Shown here: positions 4,731 through 53,605 of the stretch, in pieces
How the letters are laid out: every line of letters starts with the position of its first letter
Position numbering within the stretch: the stretch's first letter is position 1
NCBI GenBank assembly: GCA_033065855.1
Contig: JAVXUO010003221.1
Coordinates: 1 to 64,000, forward strand
Source: Escallonia rubra
Lineage: Eukaryota > Streptophyta > Magnoliopsida > Escalloniales > Escalloniaceae
DNA: 64,000 nucleotides
Direction of reading: 5' to 3'
Made by a program: the position numbers and the translations under genes
Notes under the pieces: generated by a model
Database searches by the model: none
The model's input: only the letters and a program-made list of their open reading frames with translations
Told to the model about the DNA's origin: nothing

Positions 4731-6000
4731 TGTAACATTCCGGAATTCTCGGAATGTTAACACTCGATCGAATCATTCACATACAGACGAAATTATCCTC
4801 ATAACCCAATGAACAACCATTATCAGAGTAGCTAAACCCTTAAATAATTGTAATACTCTTAATGTACAATCATACTTGGAAACTAAATTTAAACCTGAAT
4901 AATAAACTAGCAAAGTTCACCCACGCAGGGGTTCTAAAAGACCAATATGGTAACTAAATACTAATTCTCACGCTATGCTCTTAACCCAATCCCGAGCAAT
5001 CTATTGGTGAACATTACCAACAGAGAGGAAGTCAAACGGGAGTGAGTGAGCTTAGTAAGGTCGCCCAAATGAAGAAATTACTAAATAATTCACAATGCAA
5101 TCAATGATAAGTTTTCAAGAGTTTCAAAAGAATCATAACTAGTTTGATTAGATGTCACTATTATTTTTCAGATACGATGCAAACAATCACAGATACAATG
5201 ACTAGTTCGTCAAGGTACTAGCCCACACCAATACATCGGCTATTCCGTCAAGGTACTAGCCCACACCAATACACAGGCTAATCTATCGAGGTACTAGCCC
5301 ACACCAATACACCTAATATACACCAACTCCTGCCAAAACACACCAATGCATAATCTTATGTCAATATACAGAAGGACAACAATTCGCTAATGCAACATGT
5401 TATTCAATACTCGATGCACAATAATAACTGAGCACTGATAAGAGTTTCAATAAATGTTTTAAGGCTCAATGAAAGTTTTATAAGACAAAGAATGCGACTT
5501 TATCAAAATAACATAATCCAAAAGAATTGTGATAACAAATCAGAAGAACATATGAAACAATTATGAGGAGTTTTGTTCGGATGAAAATCCCTTACCACGA
5601 TCCAAGTGAGATGAAGCTAAAACGCCCTCGATCAAATACTCGGAATTAACCTAGGTTGACAAATCATTTATCAGAACACTATCCACACTAATGTATTATA
5701 AACCTAATATAACTATCCACAGCGTACCCATTTCTCTACTCAGAACGACGAAATTTGAAACGGTTCCACACACGGTCAACATATCCCGAAACTCGTCTCA
5801 CTCCTTGAGGCTCAGAAATACCCCATAAATATTTTTAATTTTAATTAAGCATTCTTAGCGAAAATTCGTGGTACACCCATGTAAGCATAGGGTACCACTG
5901 ATACAGCACTGAACTCAGCCCACTTCACTCTATTCTCTGCACGCAATCTCTCCTTCATTCACAAATCACTCATAAACTCACTCACACAGTGCATTCCCTC

Positions 6001-8580: not shown

Positions 8581-8639
<59 letters not shown>

Positions 8640-8640
8640 A
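8581..8640. repeat. CT microsatellite followed by CA microsatellite
   Basis: A pure CT run gives way to a pure CA run, inside the 3' LTR. It makes the Ser/Leu- and His/Thr-rich open frames seen here; those frames are not genes. Confidence 0.95.
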
Positions 8641-10083
8641 CTCTTTCTATCACACTATACACAGAACTCTCACAAACCACTTTCACCCTCACTCACACAG
8701 GTTCACAAAATCCTCCCCATTCTTGCACACATGCCTCACACATCATGTCGTGGTCTTTTCTCCATCTTTTCTCTTTTTCCAACACCTTATACATTTCACC
8801 CACTCACACAAACCCATTGACACTCTTTTCACTCCCTGTCTCCCATGGCCAGAAACCCACAAGCTTCCATGATTTTCACACTATAACATATACACACCAC
8901 TGCACCACTTATACACAGCCACACTCACATTCAAATATATACACCAGTTGGTGCACAAACCCACACAATACACTCAAAAATATTAACCCACTCATTGGCA
9001 GAACCAAATAATATCATATACTTCATAAACACAAATCGACATGTACTAAGCCAACCACTGCCATACCCTAACACCACACATTTCATAGCCACGAAGCTGT
9101 TGGAAAATATATCTAGTCACTATGTCCTCGCCCATATCCACAATCACCGTAACCACTGACAATGAAGACCCTAAACATTTTTTTAGCTCAATTCTTAGTT
9201 AGCTTATCTTCCTCGACCAACTTACAACCAATCTCATCTTCCACATTGAGAAGTTTTGTAACTAACTTTTGCCATTTAGAAAACCCTCTCTCATACGACC
9301 CATGCGCCCACACAATCACACAATATACTCACACATATACACAACTTCTACACGACACCGTATACTCTTAACCTCACTTCGCGACAGCCACCAAACTCAC
9401 AGAACCCACTCTCACGGCTGAAATCCCATGCCTCCCCTTTTATTCTATAAACCATTAACTAACAAAGAGAAAAAGATTTAGAAAGTTTACCGAAAAACCC
9501 AAGACGATCGCCGAAAATCCTTGTCCCCGTCCTCTCTCTCTCTCTCTCTCAGGAGGTGAGTCTGGCGGCTTCAAGGGGTGCCTTGAACGGTTGCCCCAAA
9601 ACATGTGTTATATATTTCCTCTCTCTCTCTCTAATGTGAGTCTGGTGGCTTAAAGGGGTGCCTTGGACGGTTGCCCCAGAACATGTGTTATATATATATA
9701 TATAAACCCTAGCTAGAAAAAGAAATCCCTACTCATTCATTTGTCGCTAAATTTTTTTACCCGAATTTATTATTGCGAAATGGTCCAACAATAAAACTTT
9801 ATGATAATTTATGCGTTAAGAAAAATTATCAATGAGTTATTATGCTATCTCATTTGACAAATCGTCGCTATTATGTACACCGCTACTAAAGAATTTTTTT
9901 TTTGTTTCTAAAAGTATATCGAATGCTAAGGTAGATAGTTTGCCGCTAAAAATACACGTCGACATCAAGTATATATAAAAATATAACATCGCTAGAAATT
10001 GAATCTGTTAAGAAAAAATAAATTTGTCGGTAAAAATTCCCATTTAATTTGTGAAGAGTATTTTTAGGGTTCGGGGTATTACA

Positions 10084-11832: not shown

Positions 11833-13274
11833 TGTAACATCCCAAAATTACTGGAACGTTACACTCGCTCAAACCATTCACATACAAACGAAATTATCCT
11901 CAGAACCCAATGAACCACCATTATCAAAGCAGCTAAACCCTTAAATAAATGTAATACTTTCAGTGTACAATCATACTTGGAGACAAAATTTAAACCTGAA
12001 TAATAAACTAGCAAAGTTCACCCACACAGGGGTTCTAAAAGCCAATACGGCAAGTAAATACTAACACTCACGCTCTCTAAACCCACTCCCGAGCAATCTA
12101 CTGGTGAAATTACCTGCAGAAAGGAAGTCAAATGAGAGTGAGCTTTTGAGAGCTCAGTAAGGTCGCTCAAATGAAAAAATTGCGAAAAAAATTCACAGAT
12201 GCAATTTAATTATAAATTTTCAAGCGTTTCAAAAGAATCATAACTAGTTCGGTTAGATGTCAATATGATTTTTTAGATACGATGCAAACAATCACATATA
12301 CACTTACTAGTCTGTCAAAGTACTAGCCCACACCAATACACCGGCTATTCCGTCAAGGTACTAGCCCACAACAATACACCGGCTAGTCCATCAAGGTACT
12401 AGCCCACACCAATATACCAAATACACACCAACTCCCGCCAAAACACACCAATGCAAAATCTCACGTCAATAAATAGAATGACAACAATTCAGTAATACAA
12501 CATGTTATTCAATGCTCGATGGACAATAATTAATGAGCACCGGTAAGAGTTTCAATAAACGTTTTAAGGCTCAATGAAAGGGTTTTAAGGCAAACAATGT
12601 GACTTTATCAAAATAACAGAATCTAAAAGAATAATGATAACAAATCAGAAGAACATACGAAATAATTATGAGGAGATTGGTTCGGATGAAAACTCCTTAC
12701 CACGATCCAAGTAAGATGAAGCTAAAACGCCATCGATCAAATACTCAGAATTAACCTAGGTTGACAAATCATTTATCAGAACACTATCCACACTGATATA
12801 TTATGAACCTAATATAACTATCCACAACGTACTCATTTCTCTACCTGGAATGATGAAATTTGAAACGGTTCCACACACGGTCAACCTATCCCGAAACTCT
12901 TCACACTCCTCGAGGCTCAGAAATACCCCATAAATATTTTTAATTTTCATTAAGTATTCTTTATAGCTTAATACATCATATGGAATAAAAGTATAATTTT
13001 TGAATATTTTCGAACAAAAATAATTTCTTTAAGGGCAAATTACACTTATATCCCTGAGGTTTGGGTATAATTACAGCCAAGGACAATAGTTTGGTATAAT
13101 TACACTTATGTCCTTTGACCAGACGGAATACAAAAATACATAACGGTTTTGATAAAAGACTATATTACCCTCAAGTTATAAATCTATTTATTCAAATGCC
13201 ATTATCTTAAATTTCTCTCTTAAATTCTCTTAATTCTCGCTCTCTCTCTATTAAATTATCTCTCTTAAATTAAT

Positions 13275-13279
<5 letters not shown>

Positions 13280-13329
<50 letters not shown>
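13280..13329. repeat. CT microsatellite
   Basis: A CT run with one interruption inside the Mutator-like element. The Glu/Arg-repeat frames on the minus strand come from it. Confidence 0.95.
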
Positions 13330-13330
<1 letters not shown>

Positions 13331-13449
13331 CCACCACCGCACACCACTCCACTGCTGCTACCACCTTCCCTCCACCCCTCCCGTTGTTGCGCCTCCCATT
13401 CCCCACCGCGACCAACCAGCCACGGCGAGGCAGCAACCAGTGGTGGCGG

Positions 13450-13597
13450 TGAGATCGGCGGGATTGTGGGTTTGCGAAGGGATTGTCGGGATCGGCGAGA
13501 TCGTGGGTTTGCAAAGTGATTGACGGGATCGGCGGGATCGTGGGTTTGCGAAGGGATTGACGGGATCGGCGGGATCATGGGTTTCCGAAATAGGGTT
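13450..13597. repeat. Four 37-bp tandem units in the Mutator-like element
   Basis: Units begin near 13450, 13487, 13524 and 13561 and share GGGATCGGCGGGATCGTGGG and GGTTTGCGAAGGGATTG. They occupy the cargo position of the element. Confidence 0.88.
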
Positions 13598-13877
13598 TTA
13601 GAGAGGGAGGGAGAGGTGTCGGCTGTGTGGGTTTGCGAAGGGATTGCCGGCAGCGTGGTGCAGGGAGGGGCTTGCCGGCGTGGTGGGGTGCTACGGGGAG
13701 AGGCTGTCGACATGGTGGCTGGTGCGAGGAGAGGCTGCTGGCATTGTGGGGTGGTGTGGACAGGGGCTGCCGGCGGCGAGGGGCCGGGGAAGGAGGGACT
13801 GCCGACAGCTGGGGCGGGCGAAGAAGGCGACGGCCGACGGGGACTTCAGATTCACCGGCAATGGGAGAGAGAACATA

Positions 13878-14030
13878 AAACCCTAATTTGCAAATTAGGG
13901 TTTTAAGAAAACCTAATTTGCAAATTAAAGTTTCAAGAAAACCCTAATTTGCAAATTAGGGTTTCAAGAAAATCCTAATTTGCAAATTAGGGTTTCAAGA
14001 ATATCATAATTTGCAAATTACAGTTTCAAG
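13878..14030. repeat. Palindromic subterminal array, about five units
   Basis: Repeats of about 31 bp, each containing the perfect palindrome CCCTAATTTGCAAATTAGGG or a variant, separated by TTTCAAGAAAA. The same array occurs at 26709-26915 in a related element. It could be transposase binding sites; that role is inferred. Confidence 0.88.
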
Positions 14031-15037
14031 AATATACTAAAACTAAAACTGATAAATAAATCATACACAGAACTCATTCTATCACACAATACACAGAACT
14101 CTCACAAACCACTTTCACCCTCAGTCACACATGTTCACAAAATCCCCATTCTTGCACACATGCCTAACACAAGATGGCGTGGTCTTTTCTCCATCTCTTC
14201 TCTTTTTCCAACACCTTATACATTTCACCCACTCACACAAACCCATTGACACTCTTTTCAACTCACTCCCTCTCTCCCATGGCCAGAAACCCACAAGCTT
14301 CCATGATTTTCACACTATAACATATACACACCACTGCACCACTTATACACAGCCACACTCACATTCAAATATATACACCAGTTGGCGCACAAACACACAC
14401 AATACACTCAAAAATATTAACCCACTCATTGGCAGAACCAAATAATATCATATACTTCATAAACACAAATCGACATGTACTAAGCCAACCACTGCCATAC
14501 CCTAACACCACACATTTCATAGCCACGAAGCTGTTGGAAAATATATCTAGTCACTATGTCCTCACCCATATCCACAATCACCGTAACCACTGACAATGAA
14601 GACCCTAAACATTTTTTTAGCTCAATTCGCAGTTAGCTTATCTTCCTCGGCCAACTTACAACCAATATCATCTTCCACATTGAGAAGTTCTGTGACTAAC
14701 TTTTGCCATTTATAAAACCCTCTCTCATACAACCCACGCGCCCACACAATCACACAATATACACTGCTTCTACGCGGCATCGTATACCCTTAAACTCACT
14801 TCGCGGCAGCCACCAAACTCACAGAGCCCACTCTCACAGCTGAAATCCCATGTCTCCCCCTTTTATTCTATAAACCATTAACTAACAAAGAGAAAAAGAT
14901 TTAGAAAACTTACCGAAAAATCCAAGACGATCGCCAAAAATCCTTGTCCAGTCCCCCCCCCCCCCCCTCTCTCTCCTCTCACAGGTGAGTTTGACGGCTT
15001 AAAGGGGTGCCTTGGACGGCTGTCCCAGAACATGTGT

Positions 15038-15041
<4 letters not shown>

Positions 15042-15074
<33 letters not shown>
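15042..15074. repeat. GT/TA microsatellite
   Basis: A GT run changing to a TA run. It forms one flank of the Helitron that follows; a long TA run (16316-16371) forms the other, so the Helitron landed in a microsatellite. Confidence 0.9.
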
Positions 15075-15075
<1 letters not shown>

Positions 15076-16289
15076 CTAGTATAGAGCACGTGCGTTGCAC
15101 GAGAATATAATCGAGAGAAATATTTGAGATGATATTATTATCTTACTTGAAATAAAAAATAATTTAATTGAATTATTTTCTCAACTTTTTGTGAATTTTT
15201 TAGAAGAAATGTTATTTGATGATCGCAATTGTAATCAATTCAATTTTTGAAAATATTCTTTGTAAGCTTTGGATTCANGANATGTTTGATAGTATTGTNG
15301 ATAATAAAAGCAAATAGAGAACTTAAAAGAATGAATCTACGTCTTTATTTTTGTAAATTATTAAATTGATTAATGGTTAAGATTTGTAATTTTTAAGACC
15401 AGGTCATTTATGTTTCATCAATAAGAAACACAAAACATTCAGTCTTCAACTGCAATAACCGAACATATTTTCAATTCAAAAGTTTGCACCATATTTGAGC
15501 CTTTTTTTTGTTTTCCTAACAATTTTCTGTTTCTTAATTGATTTTTCACTTATTTTAGTTTCTTTATGTTATTTTCGTTTTTCAGTTTTTCAATTGGTTA
15601 ATTGTTTACTAACCTAAAATAAAGAAAGAAAATTACAATTCTCATTAACCATGTCAATATCTAATATTTATTTTATTTTAACTAAATTAAAAGAATATAA
15701 TAAATGAACTTTTTTTTTTATTTTCTTTCTCATCATACTTTTCATTTTTCAATCAATGTATAAAATAGATTCATTACCCAATATTATTTTAATTTCATCA
15801 AAATTTTAAAAAAAATAATAAAAGAAAGGTGAGAATGTAATTAACATAAGACATAATCGTCAAAAAATAATTTATAAAAGTTATACTTTTAGAGGTAGTG
15901 CGCGCGCGCATACACCGACACACACGCATACATATATATAAATATATTTTTAACAATTACATATTTTGTTTTTCAATATGCAAATATTGATTTAGATTAA
16001 ATTTACAACATAATGTTTCTTAAACACAGTACAAAAAAACTAATTAGGAAAGGTAAAGTTGTTATTGAAATAACTAGCGGAGGGTAAAACCCAAAAATAA
16101 TTACACAATTAGTAATTAATAATAGTATTTATGAAAGGGTAGGGTAATAATGAAGTAGTATTTATGAAAGGGTGGGGTAATAATGGAGTAGTAATTATTA
16201 TAAGATAAGATTGTTATTAGAGTGATTAACGAAGGACAAAAATGGAATAAAAAGATTTACAAGATTCGTACTTTTATAGGTAGTATAGA
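15076..16289 (-). mobile_element. Non-autonomous Helitron, 1214 bp
   Basis: On the minus strand it starts TCTATACTACCTATAAAAG after an A and ends with a hairpin (CGTGCAACGCACG), a short spacer and CTAG before a T. That is the Helitron structure: insertion between A and T, no target duplication, 3' hairpin then CTRR. The body is AT-rich with no Rep/helicase sequence. It matches 25791-28012 on the opposite strand. Three undetermined bases (N) are present at 15278, 15281 and 15299. Confidence 0.85.
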
Positions 16290-16310
16290 TATAGATATAG
16301 ATATAGATAA

Positions 16311-16371
<61 letters not shown>
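16263..16371. repeat. GATATA and TA microsatellite
   Basis: Short AGATAT repeats overlap the Helitron 5' end and run into a TA tract of about 56 bp. Confidence 0.9.
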
Positions 16372-16372
<1 letters not shown>

Positions 16373-16647
16373 CCCTAGCTAGAAGAAGAAAACCCTACTC
16401 ATTCATTTGTCGCTAAATTTTCTTACCTGAATTTATTATCGCGAAATGGTCCAACAATAACATTTATGATAATTTATGCATTAAGAAAAATTATCAACGA
16501 GTTATTACGCTATCTCGTTTGACAAATCGATGGTATTATGTACATCATTATTAAAGAATTTTTTTGTCACTAAAAGTATATCGAATGCTAAGGTAGATAG
16601 TTCGCAGCTAAAAATACACGTCGACATCAAGTATATATAAAAATATA

Positions 16648-18100
16648 GGGATAATATCACTTATATCCCTCAGTTTAGGGGTAAATTACAGTCAAAGACG
16701 TAGGTTTCAAAATTTTGCAATCTTATCCAAAATATGAAAATTTTGTATCAGATATGCCCACCGTTACCGTGAACCTAACTAACGATTTTTGCTGATGTGG
16801 CAATACCGTACTTTAAAAATGGCAATACTACCCTCTCCTTCTTCCCATTTCCTCTATCCTCTCTCACAACCACTGGACCACCCAGCATTACCAACCAAAA
16901 CCACTACACAACCTAGTCACTTTGTCCCAAAAATCCCACCCCAACATCATAGTTGCACACAGATTCACAAACACACTCAAAGCACCACCCGCCCCATCAT
17001 TAATCTCCACCAGCACCACCCACCTCCATCACTTTGCCACAACCAATTCATATACAATTCAACTCCATTTTTCACATTGCTTATTTACCACTAGTTTCTA
17101 CCACAACAAATTATGGTGCTACCACCCAGATTATCTCTTAATTAGACCCTCCATCGCCTTGTTGGGCGTTGCAACAGAAGCCTCACCCCTTATTTTGCCA
17201 TCACCCATAATTTAGGCCCAGTTACTGTAGGCAACGTCCATAGTAACCACCCATAAATTAGGCCCAGTTACTATGGGCACCGTCCACCACCACCAAGATG
17301 GTTTCTACTATTTCTGCTGACCCACGTCTCTGGATCCGCTAATGTGAACGTGCGCCTCCCAATCCTCATCGCCACCGGTCGATGCACGGGCCAACAAGAC
17401 CATCGCTCACCGTCACTACAGTTGCGGCTGAGTTTTTACAGTTCCTGCTAACATGCGCCTCTCTGAAATTGTCGACCACCCACCATGACCCCCAGATGGT
17501 CGCGACGCCGAACAAGCCGCCGCAGAAGTTTCTGCCACCGTGTGGGACGTAGGAGGAAGCGTTGTCCCTGATCGAGGCCTACAGGGAGAGGTGGTACGAG
17601 CTCTGCCGCGGCTACCTCCGCACGACTGATTGGGACGCGATGGCCGCCATTGTGGGTATTCGCTACCCGGGGGCGAAGACCTCCGTGCAGTGCCACCACA
17701 AGATGGAGAAGCTACGGTAGCGCTAATTAATGGGGTTGTGTAGACGCCTAATTGGGGTTTAATGTCAAATTTTATGGGTGTGGGTGTGTGTCTATGTGTG
17801 TCATGTGAATGTGTGTTCTGTGGTGTAGGGGTGGGGTGTTGGAGAATAGGATAAGGGGAAGAAGAGAAAGGAGAAAAGAAAGAAAGAAAGAAAGGAGATA
17901 TGTTGATGCTGATGGAAGAAGAGAGACAAGAGGAAGAGAGAGAAGATGGTTTGCTCTTGAGAGGCAATCACGTCATTTAACACAAAATTTTAACACAATT
18001 AGTATTATGTCTGATCAACGGATATAAGTGATATAAACGCTAACTTGTGTCCTCGACCGTAATTTACCCCTAAACTGAGGGATATAAGTGATATTATCCC
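16648..18100. mobile_element. Pack-MULE carrying a trihelix gene fragment, 1453 bp
   Basis: The ends GGGATAATATCACTTATATC and its inverse, followed by CCTCAGTTTAGGGGTAAATT, form long terminal inverted repeats. The flanks are a perfect 9-bp duplication AAAAATATA (16639-16647 and 18101-18109), the Mutator size. The uninterrupted target is visible in the other LTR near 9980-9990. Instead of a transposase, the interior holds GC-rich sequence with a host gene fragment at 17496-17722. It inserted into the 5' LTR of the gag-only element. Confidence 0.93.
17496..17722 (+). pseudogene. Captured trihelix transcription-factor fragment
   Basis: From ATG 17496 the frame reads MVATPNKPPQKFLPPCGT, a stop, EEALSLIEAYRERWYEL, CRGYLRTTDWDAMAAIVG, KTSVQCHHKMEKLR, then a stop. 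This is the N-terminus and MYB/SANT-like trihelix DNA-binding domain of the plant family whose members carry CWT-x-EE-x-x-x-LI-x-AY, RG-L-R, W-x-x-VA and KT-x-VQCRHK-x-EKLR. It covers about 75 codons and is cut off inside the domain. Both stops are TAG where the family usually has a glutamine (CAG), and a conserved Trp is Gly. The source is a host gene elsewhere. The family is confident; the exact paralogue is not. Confidence 0.85.
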
Positions 18101-18205
18101 AAAAATATATCGTGGCTAGAAATTATATTGATGTTAAAAAAAAAATTGTCGCTAAAAATACCCATTTAATTTGTGACGATTATTTTTAGGGTTGAAAGTA
18201 TTACA

Positions 18206-18244
18206 TTTTTTGCCTTCAAAAGCACACAAACATGTAACCCTAGT
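18206..18244 (+). repeat. Continuation of old LTR-like repeat copy X
   Basis: TTTTTGCCTTCAAAAGCACA and CATGTAACC resemble sequence near 19275-19315 (minus strand) and continue the repeat interrupted at 4730. The first five bases are the target duplication of the gag-only element. Confidence 0.5.
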
Positions 18245-19260
18245 ATGGACACCCTATTTTTGTAGATTTTAATTAAATAAATAATGGGCTATATTATTTA
18301 TTAAAAGGCATTATTGAGTTCGGCTTAGTAATGTAGTTTCATTAATTAATCCAGTCCAATTTTATTTAATTTATTTTGTCTAGTTAATTGATCTAGTCCG
18401 GTCCAGTTAAATTGTCCAGTCTAGTCCATTGCATGTGCAGTCTAATTAGTAAGTCCAGTTCATTGCATTAGTCCAGTCCATATAGTTAAGTTTGGTTCAT
18501 GGTCTAGATTATTCTAAGTGATGTAATTTGTCTAGATAATTAGGAAAAATAATCCTTGATTATTCCTTGGTGAAAAAGTGACTTATCCCGAATCTGGTAT
18601 ATCCCATTTGTGTTATCAGAGATAATTACCAAAATTAGGATCATATAATGTCCCAAATTTTGGAAAAATATTTTTAATAAGTGGGGTGTACCGGCCGGTT
18701 AGTTGACTTTTGTCAATCTGTAATTTTATTACTTATTCTGACTTATTTTCAACAATGCACATTGGCATTATCTTATCAGATTCTGCAACCCTGAGCACTA
18801 TAAAAAAGAGTCTTGGCCTTCATTTTCAAGGATCGATCTCTTATAAGTCCATAAGCTTATTCTCTTTAGTGTTTCCACTCCATTTCTTTGTGAATTGACG
18901 TCCAACCTCTCTCGAGAATTTTAGTCATTCAAATCACTCTGAAAACGTCTTTTTGTTCTTTGCATCGTGGATCCAACAGAGAATATTTTTGAGTCATCCT
19001 GACAAGCTGCATTCTCGAGGTGACCTTTACCAGCTTTCCACGGGTAAAGAAATCATATATATTATTTCCCTTTCCAGTAGTCGCATTTCATTTCAAAATA
19101 ACAAAAAGAAGAGTTTTCATTTTCTTTGCCTAAGTCTAGTGTAGACTACTCGTAGGACTAGTGTCGAAATACGGTGGTTTTGATTTCGATTAGTTCTATC
19201 GAATACGTAGGTCACTTGACCCCTGTTGTCGAGTTAAGCCAAATAATCATAAAAAATATT
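18245..19260 (+). mobile_element. LTR-like repeat, copy Y (plus strand)
   Basis: It starts near GGACACCCTATTTTTGTAG and runs through GTCCAGT-rich, GATAATTACCAAAATTAGG and CCGGCCGGTTAG segments, then TCGTGGATCCAAC and GTAGGACTAGTGTCGAA. Each block has a counterpart in the same order on the minus strand at 20585-19590. No coding sequence is seen. It is a fossil LTR fragment of uncertain family (Tat/Ogre-like at best). Confidence 0.55.
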
Positions 19261-20585
19261 AGCTTAGGGTGAGTCTTGTTGTGTTTTACATGCTACACGT
19301 TTTTAGGCCAAAAATCATTAGAAACAAAGTAGAGACCAAAAGGGCGTGGCGGGTGCCGAGCAATTTCCCGTTGCATAACTTAGTCCCTGAACCCTTCTCC
19401 CGGTTTCGATAGGCTTGTTGTTCTTTTGGACACCTTCGAGTCTTTTTTCAGGGTTTTTTTTTCTTTTTTCTTTTTTCCTTTTCTTCAAATTAAATAAGAC
19501 GGCGACTCCTATATAAGTTTCTTTCATATATTTATTTTTTCGAGATGGTGTGCCACACCTAGGTTTATTTTTATATTTTTGGCTTGTACTCAACATCGGA
19601 GATCGAATTGCCTATGTATCCAGTCAGACAAACCGGAATCAAAACAACAGTAGTTCGACTCTAGTCCTACAGGAAGCAATCTACATTTTGGTCTTAGACT
19701 TAAATTGAGAAATGAAAAAGACTCTTTTTTATTTTTATAATAGAAATGTAATCATGGGAAATGGGAGACAATTCTATATTGATGAGCTAGACTAGAAAGC
19801 TACTAAAATTACCTCGGGAATTTTCTTGTCTTGATGACTCGGGAATGCCCTTCGAAGGATCCACGATGAAAGAAATTAAAGTGAGTATGAAGGGTTAAAT
19901 TCTCAGAAGAGATGATATACCACGTCACAGAGAAATGGTATAAAATCTCTAGGCAGAATAAGCTTAATTGAAACTGAGATCCAAGAACCAGATCCCTAAA
20001 AATTAAGGCCAATAGGCCTATTTATAGAGCTCTTGGGCGCCAAAACTAATAAGATTGGCTATGTCAATTTGTGAGCCGGAGATAAGTCAGAATATTTGAT
20101 AAAATTCGCAGAATGACAAAAGTCAATTGACCGGCCGGTTTGTCTAAAATCGGCCGGTTTATCTCATATTTTTTCCAAATGGTATTATCTGATCCTAATT
20201 TCGATAATTATCTCTGGTTTTGTAGATGTGATGTACCAGATTCGGCAGTTATCTTCCTAAACCATATAAATCAAGGATTTAATCCCTTACATCAAGGATA
20301 ATTCACATAACATTTTCCTAAATTATATAGAAAAAATAAAGTAAAATAAATCTAAACGCTTGGACTGGATTGACACAATTGGACTGTACTGAGCCTAATT
20401 TACTAACTGGACCATGTGACTGAACAATTAGACTTATGACCTTGATAATTGGACTGGATGAGACCAAATTAATTAATTAAGTTATATTAGTAGGCCTAAC
20501 CTTAATAGTAAACTCTAATTACTAATGAAGCCCAATATTTATTTAATTAATAATAACTACAAATATTGGGTGTCACTATGACTTC
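19261..20585 (-). mobile_element. LTR-like repeat, copy Z (minus strand), tail-to-tail with copy Y
   Basis: On the minus strand it starts GTGACACCCAATATTTGTAG at 20585 and runs leftward with the same blocks as copy Y. It goes further than Y, into GGAGTCGCCGTC and GCACCCGCCACGCCC near 19500-19340, which copy X also has in diverged form. A fossil with no coding domain seen. Confidence 0.55.
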
Positions 20586-22290
20586 TCGCACATAATGATG
20601 TCTACTACTGTCACTTAGGAAAATCCTCTTAGTAGTACTATAAGGGAGGTCATGTAGCTTTGCGCCAGACACCCTTACCCAAGAGTCCTTTGCTTTGTTT
20701 TAGCTTGCCTGTCTAGCTAGATTGCACACTGTGGATGCAAACAAAGCCTTTTGAGTTGTAATGATGCTATTGAAGTAATAAGAATATTTGGGACCGTTTT
20801 GCCCTTGTGTTAAAATTTACTCTTTGTGCACTATTTTATGCAATGTTGATGCACTGCTTGCTCTAAATTATTGGGATTAGTTGGCGGACTCTTTTTGTAA
20901 GCGGCAAGTCGAGTGCCACACACGGTTTCATTGTGCCATCAAGGGCCACCGTGTGTCACAAAGTCATGCAATGCATGAGAACCACAATAAATGCATTCGC
21001 TAGGAAGTTTGTCTATCTTTACAAGAATGATTGCAGCGAAAGCTCACAATCAAGGGGAAGGAATGAGTCATGAAATTGAGTTCGCACGAAGAAGAATGTA
21101 ATGCTCATAGATGTACCCCATATTGTAAAGCTTTGTTCAAAGGAAGACAAGCTAAGAGCAAAGAAAATGATTGTGTCTTCGAAAAAGATGGATCCCTACA
21201 GGAGAGAACAGTACCCACGGTAAAGCAATGACATTGCATTAGCTAAATGGATACGATGATTTATTTGACACGAGTTTGCAGGTGGGGGCGACTGTCGATT
21301 TTGGGTTTAACCTGATGCGAGAGCCACTTTTGTCGCTTAGAAATATATTAGAGACAAAACATTGACTTTGAAGCAACAAATTGAATTGTAAAGAAGTATA
21401 CGATAATGTGCAGAAAGAAAAACGTTTACTTGGATTAATTGCACAAGGGATGTTACTAGAAGAATGGAAGTGCCAATATGATTAACATATTTGGCTTCAA
21501 TCTTACTTTTGTCTTATATTTCAATTGATAGAGATTCGTTTGTTGTGTCGTTGGTTTTGCTTTTTGGGACATATTTTAGGAAAAATTTTCAGATGCAGCC
21601 CTGAATAAACACCCATGTGTATTGTGTAGCTGCAGCTTTCAATTCGAACCATTAACAAAGATTAGGGTACATGCAAGATAAACATAGAAAAACTCATAAT
21701 CCTCATGAGGTTGATAAATGCATCTCATATCACACCTTTTATTATTACTCTATATATGTGAGACGTATCTTGATATAGTTTTGGTACACAAAAGATACTC
21801 TATCCGTTTTATTCGATTTATTATTTAAAGTTTTGCAATATATATCTTGTTTATCAAACGACAATATAGTAACAAGCATTTAACAGAAAATGAATCCTTT
21901 ATCAAGTGGGTCAGCAAAATCTAAGAGCAATACATCAAAATCATGTCACAAACCTAAGAAGTAAATCGAACAAAAACCTTGTCTACTATGTAAATAATTC
22001 TGGCCAAATCAAAAACTTCTCCATATTTAATTCTCCATCGACTCATTTTCTCTCTTCGAACTCACTTTTTTATTCTATTTTTCTATTCACATTTAACACT
22101 TTACTAACTAATTTTCTCCCTTCTATCTTACTATTTTCTCCTTCTCTTTAAAAGGTAAAATATAAAACATACAATATATAATTTAAAATTTTAATATGTA
22201 TGTCAAGTCAAACGCGATTGAATTATGAGGCACAAAAAGACAAATTAATCTCCGAGTGAGCAGTAGAAATCTCAAGTGCCATGTGAGTGC
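20586..22290. other. Intergenic, unassigned
   Basis: No gene or complete element recognised. A purine-rich GGTGGGGGCGAC directly before TGTCG at 21284-21300 looks like a polypurine tract and LTR start, so old retroelement debris is possible. TTCTCT-rich sequence at 22020-22160 may be MITE debris. The last ~100 bases (to 22298) adjoined the MAM33 gene before the hAT insertion and may hold part of its promoter. Confidence 0.4.
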
Positions 22291-22573
22291 CCCCCACCTA
22301 GAGATTTCAAACGGGCCGGGCTTGGGCCGCCCGGCCCGGGCCCATCAGGCTTGAAGCGGGGCCGGGCCGGGGCCGGGCCAAGGGGATGCCAATCCGGGCC
22401 GGGCCGGGCCGGCTGAGGAGAAATGCTAGGCCCAATTTCTAGGGCCGGGCTTGGGCCGGGCCGGGCCCTTTTTTTTAAATTTTCTTGTTATTCAATTTTA
22501 AATTTCATCTTTAGTCATGTCCAATTTTCAAAATTTGACAAATCTAATTTTTATCATTTTATTTCATTATATG

Positions 22574-22576
<3 letters not shown>

Positions 22577-22614
<38 letters not shown>
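22577..22614. repeat. TA microsatellite in the hAT
   Basis: A TA-dinucleotide run within the left part of the hAT. Confidence 0.9.
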
Positions 22615-22621
<7 letters not shown>

Positions 22622-23060
22622 AGATATATTTATTTGTCTCTCATTTTATTTTTTGCTATATGTTAAATCTTTTCTATCTATTCTTACTCTTCTTGGTGAT
22701 CTTTATTAATAAAATCTGAACACATAACAATTATTACTATTTAAGAGAGACTGTTTCTACTATTTGATATTTTACTTCAAACTAATTGGCCGAAAACCCG
22801 GGATTGATACATGTTAATTCCCGAGACGATCTTAAGTAATAAGTATAGAAAAATAAATGTGTTCATAGGCCCTCCTCCTTTTATCCGGGCTTGGGACCGG
22901 CTGCTTGTAAACAAACAGGCGAAGTTACCTGTTTTTTTATATATACGAAAAAATATATATCTTGCTTGTAAAAATTTATTTTATATATATGGAAAAAAAG
23001 TATATTTTGTGAAAAAATTTATTCTTAAAACTTAAGAGAAGGAAAATAAAAAGAAATTAC

Positions 23061-25624
23061 CTAATCATCCGGAAGTACTTCAATATCCGAGTCACTGCTC
23101 TTCCTATCATCAATCGGTTTATCTTGCTCGCGGTATTTCGCATCAAGATAATCCTTCCAACATACACATAGCTCGAGCGACTCGGGGTTAAGACGACTCC
23201 TCCTGTCATCCAAAACCCTCCCGCTGGCTGAAAATGCCGACTCTGAAGCAACCGTGGAGGCTTGCACTGGCAGTACATCCCGTGCAATTTGGGATAAATT
23301 TTTATACATGTTTTGATTTTGTTTCCAAAAATTTAACAAATTAAAATTAACCTGTTCTTGCATTGATAAATCAGAATAATGATCAGTATTTGCATATACA
23401 CCAATCTCATTAAAAGAGGAAAAAGTATACGAACCTGCCGAATTAGAAGTACCTTCACCTGGTAGTTGTCTTGCTACTAGATGTTCAAAGCCCTGAAGGT
23501 ATGGCGCATAATACCTCTCAACAGTGGATGATGTAGCTCGCCCGCGCACGTCAGCAGAATTACGATAGAGGTTGAACAAGTCCTCAAACCTCTTGCTCAC
23601 TTTTGCTGTGAGTGCGGTTGTCTCCTCTGCTGTGTAGCACATTAATTTCGATATCTCTTGTATCAAGGCGTTCACGCCATGCAACTTTAACCTAGGATCT
23701 AAACAAGTAGCCACAGTAAAAATAACAGGCAGTTTACTCCAATATTTATTAAACTTTTCATCCATCACTTTTACTATTTCCCTAAAGGGTCCTATATATC
23801 TCCATTTTGTTAACATTGTAGCCATCTTGAGAATTTCTATTACAGCGAGAGAAGAGGTGGGATAGTACGTACCAGACAATAAATTGGTAGACGTGTAGAA
23901 TACCTTTAAAAATTCATCTAGGTATGTGGTCATCTGCCATTCCTCTTGAGTTGGCAAGCCGGCTGGGAACTGGGTTAGTAGAAAATGCGTATAAACTTCT
24001 CGGTATGCCAGAATGTGTAAAAGCATGTGGTATGTAGAGTTCCACCTGTGGACCACATCTGTAACTGCTCTCCTGCGAGGCATATTATATTCAACACACA
24101 ACGTTTTAAATTGTTGTGTTCTCGAACTCGAGCTATTAACATACGCTGTCATACCCCTCATTTTGACAAGAATATCTCCTGCAGCAGCTAAACCATCTTG
24201 AACAATTAAATTAATAATGTGACAAACACAGCGAACATGAAATAATTCACCATTAAGTACAGGTTGAAGCGTGTCCTTTAAAGCTGCAACAACAGCTTTA
24301 TTATTAGAAGCATTATCAAAACTAACACTCATAATCTTATCCTTTATTTTAAATGTGGTACATGATTTTAATATAAGAATAGCAATGTTCATTCCATCGT
24401 GCGGAAAAGGAAAGTGCTCGAAAGCGATGATTCTCTTGTGCATAACCCAATCTGCATCAATCCAATGAGCGGTCACACAAGAATAACTAACAAAAGTAAA
24501 TGGAGATTGCCAAATATCAGAAGTAAGACTAACTTTACCGTCAAATTTATCGAAATAATCGATAAGGCGTACTTTGGCAGCATTGTACTGTCGGAGTGCA
24601 TCGGATCTAGTTGTGTTTCTATGAACCTTTTTGTACAAAGGTTGAATGTATGTGTTCATATATCTAGAGTGCTTAGGATTATCGGCAAAAGAAAAGGCTT
24701 GTTCATCATGAATAACAAATTCAGCGAGACCGTCTCTTTGCTCTCGCTGATTATAAACAAATAACTTACCGTTAAAAGATTGCGTTTGGGTAGGTTCGAC
24801 GTGGCCTTGTCGAGGTGCACACTGAGGGTAATGCCTGTTAAGATGTCCATTACCACTACCAGACGAAAATAATTTAGAGCAGTACTTACATCGAGCTTTT
24901 CGGATGCCGTCCACCGTAACAAATTCAGCAAAGGTTGAACGTATGTGTTCATATATCTAGAGTGCTTAGGATTATCGGCAAAAGAAAAGGCTTGTTCATC
25001 ATGAATAACAAATTCAGCGAGACCGTCTCTTTGCTCTCGCTGATTATAAACAAATAACTTACCGTCAAAAGATAACTGCGTTTGGGTAGGTTCGACGTGG
25101 CCTTGTCGAGGTGCACACTGAGGGTAATGCCTGTTAAGATGTCCATTACCACTACCAGACGAAAATAATTTAGCGCAGTACTTATATCGAGCTTTTCGGA
25201 TGCCGTCCACCGTAACTACATCGAAATGATTCCAACACTCGGCTTTCTTTTTTTTTTTTCCCCTTTTGGACTTCTGGCACGTTACCAGAGGCATTGCTCG
25301 GCCCTTCTTCATCATGACCAGGCATAGGGTTGAGATTATACCACGGAGTAGTAGCTTCGCCAACCGAGCTGCGTCCTTGACTATAATGCGGGGGGTCTTC
25401 ATCAGGCGTGTATTCAAAATCTGGAATGTTTTGATTGAACTCCTAATTGGCTTGGGCATACAGCCTGTACTCATTCGTCCAGGAACGAATGGTTGTGTTG
25501 GTGCTTGGATTGGTGTTTGTGATGGCCGTGGCGCTGGCGCTTGTGCTGGTGGTGGTGCTTGCGATGATGATGATGTTTTTCGTGATGACGATGCACGCCT
25601 CATTTTCTTCAATAATCCAGCCAT
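23061..25624 (-). pseudogene. hAT transposase, frame broken by an internal duplication
   Basis: From the right: a Ser/Pro-rich start (MAGLLKKMRRASSS), a Lys-rich stretch, then a BED zinc finger (CWNHFDVV, YCAKLFSSGSGNGHLNRH). The RNase H-like catalytic region follows (LTSDIWQSP, SCVTAHWID, SVSFDNASNNK, VRCVCHIINLIVQDGL, RWNSTYHML, DPRLKLHG). It ends with the hAT C-terminal dimerisation domain (LNFWKQNQNMYKNLSQIARD, ASESAFSASGRVLDDRRSRL). The 617-residue frame 23061-24914 holds everything after the BED finger. The BED segment occurs twice: 24930-25216 is a tandem copy of 24637-24920, offset by 293-296 bp, not a multiple of three, so the upstream frame cannot read through. The region near 25300-25480 also reads better in another frame (EFNQNIPDFEYTPDEDPPHY), suggesting further frame changes. 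Confidence 0.9.
24637..25216 (-). repeat. Tandem duplication of the BED zinc-finger coding segment
   Basis: Two nearly identical copies of about 285-295 bp lie head to tail, sharing ATATATCTAGAGTGCTTAGG, CGTCTCTTTGCTCTCGCTGA and GGATGCCGTCCACCGTAAC. They differ by a few substitutions and a 3-bp indel, so the duplication is recent. Confidence 0.95.
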
Positions 25625-26224
25625 ATTTCACGCTAAACTTTGTAAGAGTAACTAAATACACAAGTATAAGAGTAGTAATAAGAAATAACAATTAAAAGAA
25701 TGAACGAGTAACAAATATTAATCACTGAGGGTAATTCTGATCCAATCTGGAAAGAGTTAGTAATTAAAAAGCATTTAGTAATAGTAATAATCTATACTAC
25801 CTATAAAAGTACGAATCTTGTAAATCTTTTTATTCCATTTTTGTCCTTCGTTAATCACTCTAATAACAATCTTATCCTTTAATAATTACTACTCCATTAT
25901 TACCCTACCCTTTCATAAATACTATTGTTCATTAGTAATTGTGTAATCATTTAGTTGGGCTAATTACACTTATATCCCTGAGGTTTGGGGGTAATTACAC
26001 GCGAGGACACAAAGTTTCAAAATGTAACACTTGTGTCCATTGACAAACGGAACCCTAAAAATCCTAACGGTTTTAACAAAATGACTTTATTGCCCTTATG
26101 TTAGAAAGTTAATTTTTTAAATGCCATTGTTTCTTTTTAGAAAAGAAAATCAGAAAAGAAAAACACCCCCCACCCCATCTGCATCCCCCTCGCCCTTCCC
26201 CGTCACCCACCCACCCCGCCTGCT

Positions 26225-26340
26225 TCCCTTCCCCGGCGCCGCACCTCGCCTGTTCCCCTTCCCCGGCGCCGCACCCCGCCTGCTCCCCTTCCCCGGCGCC
26301 GCACCCCGCCTGCTCCCCTTCCCCGACGCCGCACCCCGCA
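26225..26340. repeat. 30-bp GC-rich tandem array
   Basis: Four units of TTCCCCGGCGCCGCACCCCG plus CCTGCTCCCC, with small variations. It extends the captured minus-strand frame into Gly/Ala/Lys/Arg repeats (RRGAAPGKGS). Confidence 0.9.
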
Positions 26341-26350
26341 TGCCTCCTCC

Positions 26351-26515
26351 TTCTTCGACCAACCGGTCCACCTCTTGTTTCACTTTGGGGTCGCCGTAGT
26401 CGTCGTCGATGTACGGCAGTGCATCTATAACGTCTGCGGCTGCGGTGGACCACGTCGGTCGGTAGGAATGAGGAGCTTCTAGCATTCGGATCTCTTATTT
26501 GCTGTCCGTCGCCAT
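26351..26515 (-). pseudogene. Captured MOS4/SPF27 (BCAS2) first-exon fragment
   Basis: Reading leftward from ATG 26515: MATDSK, a stop, EIRMLEAPHSYRPTWS, TAAADVIDALPYIDDDYG, DPKVKQEVDRLVEE. This is the N-terminus of SPF27/BCAS2, called MOS4 in plants, a subunit of the PRP19/NTC spliceosome-activating complex; V-(I/V)-DALPY-x-D and the following VDRLVEEE are its hallmark. The fragment stops at VEE, where the family continues with EMRR, and runs into the 30-bp tandem array. The in-frame TAA at codon 7 means only the internal ATG (26485) opens a frame, a 111-residue chimera. About 50 of roughly 250 family residues are present, so it is not a functional gene. Confidence 0.87.
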
Positions 26516-26708
26516 CGCCTTTGTTTGCACAAGCACACCCAAAGCTCGTTTCCTCTGAATACCAGAAAGACTACCACTAAAATGGTGTGGACAGGGGCTG
26601 CCGGCGGTGAGGGGCCGGGGAAGGAGGGACTGCGACGGCGGGGGCGGGGGAGGGAGGCGACGGTCGGCGGGGACTTCAGATTTACCGGCAATGGGAGAGA
26701 GAACATAA

Positions 26709-26915
26709 AACCCTAATTTCCAAATTAGGGTTTTCTTGAAACCCTAATTTGCAAATTAGGGTTTCAAGAAAATCCTAATTTGCAAATTAGGGTTTCAAGA
26801 ATATCCTAATTTGCAAATTAGGGTTTCAAGAATATCCTAATTTGCAAATTAGGGTTTCAAGAATATCCTAATTTCTAAATTAAGGTTTCAATAAAATCCT
26901 AATTGTGACTTTAAA
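26709..26915. repeat. Palindromic subterminal array, six units
   Basis: About 31-bp units, each with CCTAATTTGCAAATTAGGG and a TTTCAAGAATA-type linker. The same design as 13878-14030. The outer units are more diverged than the inner ones. Confidence 0.9.
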
Positions 26916-28722
26916 TTAAGGCTTGAAATTTTAATTTAAATTTTTTAAAAATATTCAGTATATACAGTACAAGGGGTAGTATTGTCATTTTAAAAATACG
27001 TATTGATGACATCATACAAAAAGTACAATTTTTGGATGGAACCCTAACGGATGGACACGACTGATACATTTTAAAAGTGTTTGGTCACGGAATGTTACAT
27101 TTTGAAACTCGTTGTCCTTGACTGTAATTATACCCAAACCTCAGGGATATAAGTGTAATTAGCCCTTATTTCAATAACAACTTTACATTCCCTAATTAGT
27201 TTTTTTGTACTGTATTTAAGAAACATTATGTTATAAATTTAATCTAAATCAATATTTACATATTAAATTTTGATGAAATTAAAATAATATTGGGTAATGA
27301 ATCTATTTTATACATTGATTGAAAAATGAAAAGTGTGATGAGAAAGAAAAACATAACAAAAAAGTTCCTTTATTATATTCTTTTAATTTAGTTAAAATAA
27401 AATAAATATTAGATATTGACCTGGTTAATGAGAATTGTAATTTTCTTTCTTCATTTTAGGTTAGTAAACAATTAACCAATTGAAAAACTGAAAAACGAAA
27501 ACAACATAAAGAATCTAAAATACGTGAAAAATCAATTAAGAAACAGAAAATTGATAGGAAAACAAAAAAATGGTTAAATAAAAAAATAAGGCTCAAATAT
27601 GGTGCAAATTTGAATTAAAAATATGTTCGGTTATTACAGTTGAAGACTGGGTGTTTTGTGTTTCTTATTGATGAAACATAAATGACCTGATCTTGAAAAT
27701 TACAAATCTTAACCATTAACTAATATAATAATTTGTAAAAATAAAGACATAGATTCATTCTTTTAAGTTCTCTATTTGCTTTTATTTTCAACAATACCAT
27801 CACACATTTCTTCAATCCAAAGCTTACAAAGAATATTTTCAAACATTGAATTGATTACAATTGCGATCTTCAAATAACATTTCTTCTGAAAAAATCACAA
27901 AAAGTTGAGAACATAATTGAATTACATTATTTTTTATCCCAAGTATGATAATAAATCACCTCAAATATTTCTCTCGACTATATTCTCGTGCAACGCACGT
28001 GCTCTATACTAGTAAATAAAAATTCACTAATTACTAATTACTAGATAAAAGAATTAGAGAATAACAAATTAATAAGATGAGTAGTTAGTAATTACAATTT
28101 AGCAAGAGTAATAATTAGTAAACAAGAGTAATAATTATCAAGGCCACTAATTAGTAAAATAATAGTAGTAATTAGCAAGAGTAGTAATTGGAGAGGGAAA
28201 TAGTAGCAAAGCTTGTAGAAATGTAGAATGTTTAGATAAGAGAGAGTAAGAAGATTGGTGTGAAAAATTAAAGAGAACTAGTGTGAATTTATAGATTTTG
28301 GAAACTTCACAAAAGACCAAAATACCCCTAAAAACTATCCGTTTATAGTTGTTGGGGAGGGTAAGAGTGTAAAAACCCTTAAAAGAGTTGAAAAAATTAA
28401 GTTAGACTAAAATACCCCCCAAACTAGCCGTTATATTGCTGTTGGGGGGGTAAAAGTGGAATTTAGGGAAGTTATGGGGAATAAATCCGTTGGGGGGAAA
28501 AGGGGGGAAAATCAAATTTTCAAACCAGGTGGGGCCTGCTGAACCGGGCCGAAACCGAGCCGGGCCAGAACCGGGCTTTTCCGGGCCGGGCCTGGCCCGG
28601 GCTTTTTTCCGAGAAATCTTGGCCTGGTCCAAGCCCAGGCCCAAAGCCCACTACATTAGGGCCGCTACTGTTCACATACCGGGCCGGGCCAGCCCGCGCC
28701 GCGGGCTCTTTTGACGACTCTA

Positions 28723-41978: not shown

Positions 41979-43235
41979 ATAACATTTTTAAAAAGTTTAA
42001 AGTTACTGTAGCACCTGCATCATTAGGTTTGCATTTAGCAGCACATATATATCTATACTACTTATAAAAGTGTGGATAGATGCAAATCATTTTTTGGATA
42101 AAATTACCCTTATAAAAATTAAAAATACCATTAACACCCTTTTAATCTTGTTACATATTTATTTTTATTTTTTCTCACTTCCGATGCATGTTCATGTTCC
42201 ATCCATAATCTTTTGAAATTAATAGCTGGACTACTTCAACCTCACGACTATACATATTCATCGTATCAATCCTTAAAAACCTTCCTCTTCAACTTCCCAT
42301 TCCTCCGCTCCACTACACCAACAGGCTTCCACCCTATAGCAGTTTTCTTTTTACCTCCTTTAAATTAGAAAATTGCAAGATCTCTAATTGCTCAAATTGG
42401 GAAACTAATTATTTTTATGTTTTCATCCATGCAGGTATGAAGCAAAGATATGATCTCTTAGTTTCACGAAGTTCTAGACACTTGAAAGTGAGTACTAAGA
42501 TTCTTACTACTCCTTAAGGAATTAGAATTTTTTTTTCTTTCTGCAACTATTATTTGTCCTTTTTGAGGTATGGTTTTATAGAAAAGTTATCTACTGTCAA
42601 TTAACTTGATTATTATTCCGTGTCGCAGTTACTTTTGGTCTCATATTTATTTGTTTGGCTATTATATGACGGACACTACACAATTTGCTTATTTAAAATG
42701 GATAGATACTTTCACTATGTTTTTTGCCGTGTATATTTATCTTTCTTTTCCGCCAGTCATGTGAGTTCTCTAACTTCATATTCGAGGCACATAAATTTTA
42801 TTGTGTACTCGCAATTGATCTTAAGCAATATCTGGAGTAGTTTGCCATGAAAATGTAACTATGTGTTTGTGTGACGGATACTCTTGGGTTAAAGAAAATT
42901 GGTTTAGTTTAATAGAGCGCTGAGCGCATAACTTGATTTCAACCAACCATAAGCTTGTAGTGTGTATGAACACGAGACAAAATTTATAGTCTACACAATG
43001 TTTCATTTCTGAACAAAAGTAGAAATCATGAGTAGAGTTATACAACTAGGTCTTTAGAGTATCCTCCAGATTCATGACTTTTAGAATTTTTGTGTTAGCT
43101 ATAGCATGACCTTCCCTAGCTGTGTATTTTACAGCTGCTATTATTTATATTAAGTGGTCATTTTTGTAATTTTTTTTTCATGAAAGGACTCCTTTTTTAT
43201 TTTTCCTTAGTAATATGACCTCCAAATTTAATCTA

Positions 43236-44338
43236 GGGTTAATTACACTCATGTCCCTGAGGTTTGGGTGAAATTACACGCGTGTCCATAAGTTTGAAAA
43301 ATAGGCAGTTATGTCCTTTGACCTAACGGAATATCCAAATACTTAACGGTTTACATAAAAAGACCAGATTGCCCCTTTCTTCTTCCTCTTCAAAATCTTC
43401 CACCACCGCACGGCGTCGGCACCACCTCCACCACGCCGCCATCACGTAGCCACCCTTGACCCACCCACCAAATGCCTCCAAAACTTCCAAAATCTCAATC
43501 ACAAAAATTCTCACAGATTCCTCTCCACCAAATGCCTCTCAGATTCGTCTTCTCTCTTCCCCCCTCGCCCCACCATCCGGCAGACTTGCCCCACCATGCC
43601 GACAAGCCCTTGGCGAGGGAGGGAGGAAGACTGGATGGGAAGGAGACATATCTGGCCATTACAATGACGGTGATCACACCGGTGTGCGCGATGATGCAAG
43701 CCCATCGTGGTGGTGATGGCGCTGCCTTGCTGGTGGTCACGGTGGCGCGCATCTTAAAGGAGGAGGCTGGTGTCGTGAGGTAGCTCGGTAATGCTTGCGA
43801 TCTCGGACGGCGCGGGGTGCGGAGGTAGGTCGCGACGGTGATGGTGGCGACCGGTATGGCGACAGGCAGATCGAGAGTGAGACCGCGATCTTGCAGCACC
43901 GGAGGGCCTACTACTGCGCTGACGGTGATCGGGCCTGCTACTACGCTGGGTGGCGCAGATGGATTGCCTCGGGTTTGGTGACGGCATTGACTCGGTTGCC
44001 GCCGGGGAAGGGGGTTGTGGGCATGAGGGGGTGGGCGGGTGACGGGGAAGGGGGAGGCAGACGGGGTGAGGGCGGGGGGGGGGGGGGGTGTGGGGAGAGG
44101 AAGAGGCTTGACAAAATCTTAAAATTATTCAATATATTTTTCTACAAGGGCAGTTTTGTCATTTTGAAAATACGTAATGATGTCATCCTAAAAAAATACA
44201 CTTTTTGGACAGAACCCTGACGGATGGACATAAGTGTTACATTTTTAACGTTTGTGGTCACGGTGTGTTACTTTTTGAAACTTTGTGTCCTTGACTGTAA
44301 TTTTACCCAAACCTCAGGGACATAAGTGTAATTAACCC
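43236..44338. mobile_element. Mutator-like element with GC-rich cargo, 1103 bp
   Basis: Terminal repeats GGGTTAATTACACTCATGTC and GACATAAGTGTAATTAACCC, then CCTGAGGTTTGGG. The 9-bp flanks TTTAATCTA and TTCAATCTA match at 8 of 9. The interior is GC-rich, with a frame YLAITMTVITPVCAMMQ near 43645-43700 that I cannot assign; a captured exon is possible but unproven. No transposase. Confidence 0.88.
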
Positions 44339-45603: not shown

Positions 45604-46010
45604 GCGAAAGGGGAGTTGAAGAGCTCCCTGGCAGAGATAGTGTCCCGGAGGAGTCGCCTATCCCCGCGGGTGAGTCCTTATGCCGGAGCACTCGGAGCGA
45701 GTCAAGGTAGCATCCCGGAGGAGCCGTCTACCCGACTGGCCGAGGTAGCATCCCGGAGGAGCCGTCTACCTGGCGGAAGGGGAGTTGAAGAGCTCCCTGG
45801 CAGAGATAGTGTCCCGGAGGAGTCGCCTATCCCCGCGGGTGAGTCCTTATGCCGGAGCACTCAGAGCGAGTCAAGGTAGCATCCCTTAGGAGCCGTCTAC
45901 CCGACTAGCCGAGGTAGCATCTCGGAGGAGCCGTCTACCTAGCGGAAGGGGAGTTGAAGAGCTCCATGGCAGAGATAGTGTCCCGGAGGAGTCGCATATC
46001 CCCGCGGGTG
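45604..46010. repeat. 169-bp minisatellite in the solo LTR
   Basis: GTTGAAGAGCTCC recurs at about 45613, 45782 and 45951, a 169-bp period. Each unit contains two copies of GGTAGCATCCCGGAGGAGCC and one of GATAGTGTCCCGGAGGAGTC, a higher-order repeat. More diverged units precede it from 45310. Confidence 0.9.

Positions 46011-53570: not shown

Positions 53571-53605
<35 letters not shown>

Follow-up and report, generated by a model that had tools for sequence, protein, structure and literature searches.

The Mutator family typically combines conserved ends with unrelated interiors and 9-bp target duplications (PMC3276141). The maize Mu elements (Mu1-Mu19) and MuDR share long conserved terminal inverted repeats around unrelated interiors, some of them from host genes, and make 9-bp duplications (PMC3276141). 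Rice Pack-MULEs carry host fragments inside the ends of Mutator-like elements (MULEs), with unlinked source genes, a partly multicopy distribution, and pieces of high G+C (PMC8277862, citing earlier work), and Pack-CACTA and other Pack-TYPE elements also shuffle host DNA between conserved ends (PMC8903248). How Mutator elements acquire host sequence is still debated (PMC8277862), the proposed models being gap filling, fork switching, and co-mobilization (PMC8277862, PMC8903248). Here, we describe a Mutator-like family in a 64,000-nucleotide stretch of the Escallonia rubra genome (C2210:1-64000 of a 566-Mb assembly with 3222 contigs; hereafter, the window). We consider it highly likely that its members are conserved-end MULEs, mostly non-autonomous, that swap their interiors through host-gene capture and exchange between elements and then multiply.

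The kind of element is itself ordinary, as this is classical Mutator behavior. To judge from the description of maize Mu (an end sequence of about 220 bp being the mark of Robertson's Mutator proper), this is another sequence family, with distinguishable A and B ends and a 31-bp palindromic array in its main backbone. Set beside rice Pack-MULEs, for which similar cases may already be published, it offers a before-and-after pair for one capture and an interior that occurs in a second end lineage with its orientation to the ends reversed. It differs from Pack-TYPE elements in its Mutator-type transposase, its 9-bp duplication, and the lack of nested ends in the 7 elements tested. We found no published description of the family in the literature, which was not searched by family name. 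The elements of the window and their parts are as follows.

13033-14061, plus strand: Mutator-like element, truncated on its right side
13453-13589, plus strand: 37-bp tandem repeats, interior of the 13033 subfamily
13752-14040, plus strand: GC-rich block and palindromic telobox array, 92% identical to 26583-26871
16639-16647, no strand: perfect 9-bp target duplication AAAAATATA, second copy at 18101-18109
16648-18100, plus strand: Pack-MULE with trihelix cargo, ends moderately like those of the other window elements
17424-17725, plus strand: fragment of a trihelix transcription factor gene, host copy on C1562
25957-27165, plus strand: Pack-MULE with MOS4 cargo, without a 9-bp duplication
26212-26353, plus strand: 30-bp GC-rich tandem repeats, found also in copies without MOS4
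26350-26582, minus strand: 233 bp like MOS4/SPF27 exon 1 (leader, start codon, about 49 codons), with a stop at codon 7
26712-26904, plus strand: array of 31-bp units containing the palindrome CCTAATTTGCAAATTAGG
43236-44338, plus strand: Mutator-like element, duplication matching at 8 of 9 positions (43227-43235, 44339-44347)
43560-44107, plus strand: interior common to another end lineage, inverted relative to the ends
52489-53810, plus strand: element assigned to a separate family, perfect duplication ATTTTTCTT at 52480-52488 and 53811-53819

Allowing up to 8 mismatches to the first 32 bp of the 25957 element, a search of the window returned 13033, 16648/18100, 25957/27165, and 43236/44338; the element at 52489-53810 was not among these and was recognized by reading the sequence alone. 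The entry point to the assembly was the exact 32-bp end of the 25957 element with one free position, GGGNTAATTACACTTATATCCCTGAGGTTTGG, which occurs exactly 70 times, compared with 0 for the reversed-pattern control. When two positions are left free and as many as 3 mismatches are allowed, the number of ends rises to 3336 (1688 + 1648), and the reversed control again gives 0. As entry was through an exact end, the sample leans to young copies. We took 71 loci, made up of exact-end sites and the best full-length matches; 4 of these were duplicates and 9 were unpaired, and setting them aside left 58 unique paired elements of 769 to 1436 bp. Six of the unpaired sites were fetched at greater length: four gained partners, and L086 and L087 had no partner end within about 8 kb. 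The other three (L026, L048, and L052) were left at their original length; L048 and L052 are MOS4 copies with one end seen.

In the 58 paired copies, the 9-bp flanks agree without mismatch in 44, with 1 mismatch in 10, with 2 in 2, and with 5 in 2, so that 56 of the 58 have a target duplication at 0 to 2 mismatches, while random re-pairing of the flanks gives on average 0.8 perfect matches of 58. The duplications of these 56 elements are 91% A+T. The two copies without a matching duplication are L031, whose flank does match (1 mismatch) if an alternative end is used, and L043. In the 25957 element, the long terminal inverted repeats measure 73 bp and are 89% alike (25957-26029 and 27093-27165). 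With the ends of a 9050-bp element of the family (described below) as references, 57 of 60 elements have one A and one B end, 53 of them clearly; the exceptions or near-ties are seven (L016, L035, L059, L018, L069, 16648, and 52489), with L016, L035, and L059 showing B at both ends, one of these ends being a tie or within 0.01.

It is scarcely credible that such ends resemble each other by convergence or chance among unrelated elements, given the 70 exact ends with none in the control and the paired duplications, and we judge this explanation refuted for 13033, 25957, and 43236. It holds in part for 52489. Shuffled sequence of the same make-up aligns at 60% on average and 66% at most in our 140-bp end scoring, so identities near 60% carry no meaning, and the 52489 ends score 57 to 69% against the others, at or just above that level, with resemblance (by eye) over roughly the outer 35 bp only. 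From its sequence, we assign 52489 to another family. The 16648 ends are intermediate (59 to 75%). Thus, the claim of an earlier note on this window that all five elements have related ends stands for 13033, 25957, and 43236, partly for 16648, and not for 52489, while the duplications it listed for 16648, 43236, and 52489 were recovered as in the feature list.

The longer fetches gave four extra paired elements, of 1582, 7378, 5863, and 9050 bp, with 1 mismatch in the duplication of the 1582-bp element and 0 in that of the 7378-bp element. Two of the four encode a transposase. L085 (5863 bp; perfect 9-bp duplication TATAAACAA) has its domains split over two stop-free frames of 589 and 209 codons, and the 9050-bp element (L088+L089; perfect 9-bp duplication TTATTAAAA) has a single frame of 960 codons. 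The frames of both match PF03108, PF10551, PF00872, and SWIM, that is, MuDR DNA-binding, MULE transposase, and SWIM domains. Over 140 bp, the left end of 13033 is 95% identical to the A end of L085 and 96% identical to that of the 9050-bp element, and the right end of 25957 shares 96% identity with the B end of the latter. The same ends, the 9-bp duplications, and a MuDR-type transposase in such elements identify the family as Mutator-like elements, several of them Pack-MULEs. To judge from these matches, MuDR-type elements that share these ends very probably mobilize the non-autonomous copies. The 7378-bp copy (L084:623-8000) has family ends and a perfect 9-bp duplication and contains no stop-free frame longer than 149 codons.

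The clearest record of a capture is the MOS4 cargo, which the earlier note had correctly described as a MOS4/SPF27 exon fragment in the 25957 element. A search with 26340-26600 gave 17 candidates, all scored, of which 16 lie in elements (14 with both ends seen and 2 with one end). The only match outside elements is C1105:42195-42427, 233 bp at 95%, within an exon whose reading frame continues without a stop after the captured part and encodes a BCAS2 domain (E 1.8e-14); the 3.5 kb read at this host locus contain no family end, even with 10 mismatches allowed. By eye, the GC-rich sequence upstream of the host exon (L039:2900-3501) resembles the window near 44960-45300. All 14 copies examined have the stop at codon 7, which means that they cannot make a normal N terminus from that start and that they most simply descend from one capture. 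Ungapped differences to the host gene number 7 to 13 of 233 in 12 copies, with two indel-bearing copies left out. The 9-bp duplication is perfect in 10 of the 14 paired copies, has 1 mismatch in two others and 2 mismatches in L004, and is missing from 25957; these duplications show that the fragment was amplified by transposition.

The interval occupied by the MOS4 piece can be compared with copies that lack it. It measures 232 to 235 bp in three MOS4 copies, and 80, 104 (three copies), 120-121 (four copies), or 203 bp in nine copies without MOS4. As 13033 has the backbone sequence at the right junction, the state without MOS4 is taken as ancestral; the MOS4 state derives from a backbone that lacked both MOS4 and the 37-bp repeats. 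Alignment of these copies suggests that the MOS4 piece replaced a short backbone stretch, apparently once. The left junction has a 4-bp microhomology with the gene (CTTC) and the right junction has 0; 4 bp or more is reached at 1.8-1.9% of random junctions.

Three further cargoes trace to host genes. From 13 elements, we took the stop-free stretches of 55 codons or more, 123 in all, and scanned them with Pfam; at E up to 0.01 only BCAS2 and Myb_DNA-bind_4 were found, the latter in the trihelix cargo of 16648 (E 8e-5, 23.4 bits, under the Pfam cut-off of 27). A trihelix search gave 59 matches among 68 candidates, all scored. On C1562, a stop-free frame of 486 codons has 85% protein identity to the cargo, and the DNA is 84.6% identical over 311 columns. 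The L033 cargo matches a PB1 gene on C1389 (94% over 442 columns; PB1 E 2e-14 on the host gene, with no Pfam match in the PB1-bearing stretch of L033 itself), and the L049 cargo matches a 2-hydroxyacid dehydrogenase gene on C2819 (81% over 283 columns; E 7e-13). These last two were spotted by eye from protein motifs and confirmed by Pfam on the host genes. As with MOS4, no family end lies in the host stretches read (PB1 0.8 kb, dehydrogenase 1.1 kb, trihelix 0.5 kb), so that all four cases are Pack-MULEs in the usual meaning of a host fragment inside the element and a source elsewhere without ends, within the 0.5 to 3.5 kb read for each. Judging from the frames, the captured piece spans the likely start codon in MOS4, PB1, and dehydrogenase. 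The G+C content of these three pieces is above that of both flanks read (0.54 versus 0.41 and 0.30; 0.61 versus 0.44 and 0.58; 0.66 versus 0.58 and 0.51), which, with n=3, only agrees with the published tendency.

In the model published for Pack-TYPE elements (PMC8903248), a pair of neighboring elements is mobilized together with the host DNA that it encloses. We regard such co-mobilization as improbable for this family, because the host stretches read (0.5 to 3.5 kb per gene) show no family end, the seven elements tested (25957, L002, L003, L033, L049, 16648, and 43236) gave no remnant of an internal end when up to 11 of 32 positions could mismatch, and MOS4 was substituted for backbone instead of being added to it.

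Interiors were compared among 61 elements, namely, the 56 with duplications at 0 to 2 mismatches and the five window elements; the two copies with 5 mismatches were excluded before clustering. At 80% mutual coverage there are 15 clusters (18, 14, 12, 4, 2, and 2 elements and nine singles), and at 60% there are 10 (47, 5, and 2 elements and seven singles). The central idea of the earlier note, one Mutator family that keeps its ends and varies its interiors, is therefore borne out, and interiors are not constant in this set. Judged from one representative each, the cluster of 18 (cluster 0) has no private stretch, the cluster of 14 (cluster 1) has a private stretch of 205 bp inside the MOS4 piece, and the cluster of 12 (cluster 2) has one of 207 bp. 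The GC-rich repeats and the palindromic array are thus backbone, as the cluster comparison leaves them unprivate and groups 47 of the 61 elements at 60%; the same grouping led us to reject the palindromic array as a cargo. Five cargoes were looked for in the 61 elements (MOS4 in 14; trihelix, PB1, dehydrogenase, and the 37-bp repeats in 1 each), and no element has two of them (0/61). Pfam gave no match for the interiors of 13033, 43236, 52489, L018, L027, L053, and L054 or for the private piece of cluster 2, for which the genome was searched only for copies of 13033, 43236, and 52489, with no search aimed at host sources.

The backbone common to 47 of 61 elements would also be expected if all interiors were fragments of one longer ancestral element that differ by internal deletion. 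This is very unlikely, since the host exon that corresponds to the MOS4 segment runs on without a stop beyond the piece taken up, a differing backbone sequence occupies the MOS4 place in copies that lack the cargo, with a right junction shared with 13033, and no element combines two of the five cargoes, so that MOS4 and the 37-bp repeats are never found together.

The arrays at 26712-26904 and 13877-14040 are built of telobox-type motifs (AAACCCTAA/TTAGGGTTT), which we take to be a possible binding platform for telobox-binding proteins. The 25957 element has 7 telobox-type 9-mers, copies in clusters 0, 1, 2, and 4 have 1 to 15 each, compared with 1 in 10.2 kb of flanks, and perfect 18-bp palindromes number 0 to 7 per backbone copy. 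The predicted single-strand fold of the array has -62.4 kcal/mol (z -13.6). One could imagine the backbone as a built-in cargo exchanger, in which the 30-bp GC-rich repeats and telobox palindromes would stall repair synthesis and promote template switches, reaching host genes and other elements and even inverting interiors between fixed A and B ends; the strongly varying array copy number is as expected of such a site, and we hold this idea as unlikely on the whole.

Copy numbers for window interiors are lower bounds, as at most 40 candidates were scored per DNA search. The 13033 interior recurs at 34 or more other places, at 80 to 90% over most of positions 1-1033 of the element (40 scored of 3409 candidates, of which 5 more match the adjoining repeat only), and the 37-bp repeats, present in 1 of the 61 elements compared, lie within the stretch aligned by those 34 places. 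For 16648, only the 441-bp stretch 17300-17740 was searched, and all 40 scored places of 62 candidates match, its own copy included. There are at least 9 full-length copies of 43236, itself included (40 scored of 3983 candidates), and at least 10 other near full-length copies of 52489, more diverged at 77 to 86% (40 scored of 1688). The window interiors are thus multicopy, amplified subfamilies and not five fresh captures, and one of them, 52489, belongs by our assignment to another family, so the proposal that five cargo variants in 64 kb reveal efficient acquisition does not hold. Capture looks rarer than amplification.

Interiors and ends do not always share one history. The interiors of 43236 and L009 are 90.4% identical over 561 columns. 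The A and B ends of the two elements are 78.5% and 79.8% identical and align on the other strand, so that the interior is inverted with respect to them. Substitutions number 39 of 546 in the interior and 57 of 344 in the ends (Fisher p 2e-5). A further 31 scored places share part of positions 325-872 of 43236, and among the matches listed, 30 of them have a long end match (1-141 or 887-1103, whole or part), and in all 30 the end match and the interior match lie on opposite strands. Shorter outer matches, 65 to 74 bp long, occur on either strand, as inverted repeats require. The ends of 43236 are nearer to those of L033 (86% and 91%) and L053 (89% and 86%), both with other interiors. Between 13033 and 25957, the earlier note had seen a common left end, GC-rich block, and palindromic array; the left ends are 79.5% identical over 176 aligned columns and the block with the array is 92.1% identical over 290 columns, with 27 of 167 and 21 of 288 differences, respectively (p 0.004). 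From these comparisons, it appears that some interiors were transferred from one end lineage to another.

Both window copies show damage: 13033 lacks a right end and is not a whole copy, and 25957 lacks its duplication. For 13033, the window search found no right end; the element breaks off at 14062, where another repeat starts. That repeat (14062-15038) is also found at 8629-9609 (91.9%), twice on C474, and on C743 and C2209, and on C474 and C2209 the same order occurs, about 4.4 kb apart. Positions 4731-5856 are repeated at 11833-12961 (88.5%). A tandem duplication of several kilobases (88 to 92%) followed by deletion would fit the truncation. A solo end was ruled out for 13033, as the 34 other places extend across its interior.

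Several points weigh against capture and exchange under shared ends as we propose them. The set of elements is biased to copies with the exact 32-bp end, mobility is read from the DNA alone, and the B end of L085 is only 76% identical to the right end of 25957 and near no window end. Microhomology is present at one of two junctions of a single event, which is weak for template switching. The ends may evolve faster than the interiors, which could imitate some of the discordance in identity but not the inversion, and the strand pattern could have arisen if the interior simply inverted within one lineage; together, inversion and unequal rates could explain some of the discordance but hardly the reshuffled pairing of ends and interiors. 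Finally, 25957 has no 9-bp duplication at its flanks. It is inserted in a repeat whose unoccupied form is matched at 98 places, one within the window, and compared with these (by eye), about 25 bp are missing directly left of the element, a gap that leaves only two bases of the left duplication that would be expected. This suggests that the duplication was lost with about 25 bp of left flank; insertion with a 2-bp duplication was rejected, as the 98 homologous sites indicate flank loss.

Two other sets of repeats were seen in the window. Positions 15077-16283 (minus strand) and about 25790-28018 (plus strand) are two copies of one repeat with a TC start and a hairpin followed by CTAG, as in Helitrons, and the 25957 element sits inside the second copy. 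At positions 45451-46703 and 58766-60300, GC-rich tandem arrays (169-bp, 27/28-bp, and others) form two sets that resemble each other and are probably two copies of one large repeat.

In the capture and exchange that we propose, a piece of a host gene would be copied into an element and replace part of its interior. The likeliest occasion is the repair of a break or gap within the element, during which the gene would come to serve as template. Recombination or template switching would carry interiors, or blocks of them, from one element lineage to another, and a successful version would then be multiplied by transposition, with MuDR-type elements of the same ends moving the non-autonomous copies, a process that may be active at present. 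The value of the family is that one assembly holds near-identical copies, a traceable source gene, the uncaptured ancestral backbone, and a transposase with the same ends, so that the capture step can be read base by base, and the inverted interior suggests that these elements exchange sequence with each other besides capturing it from genes.

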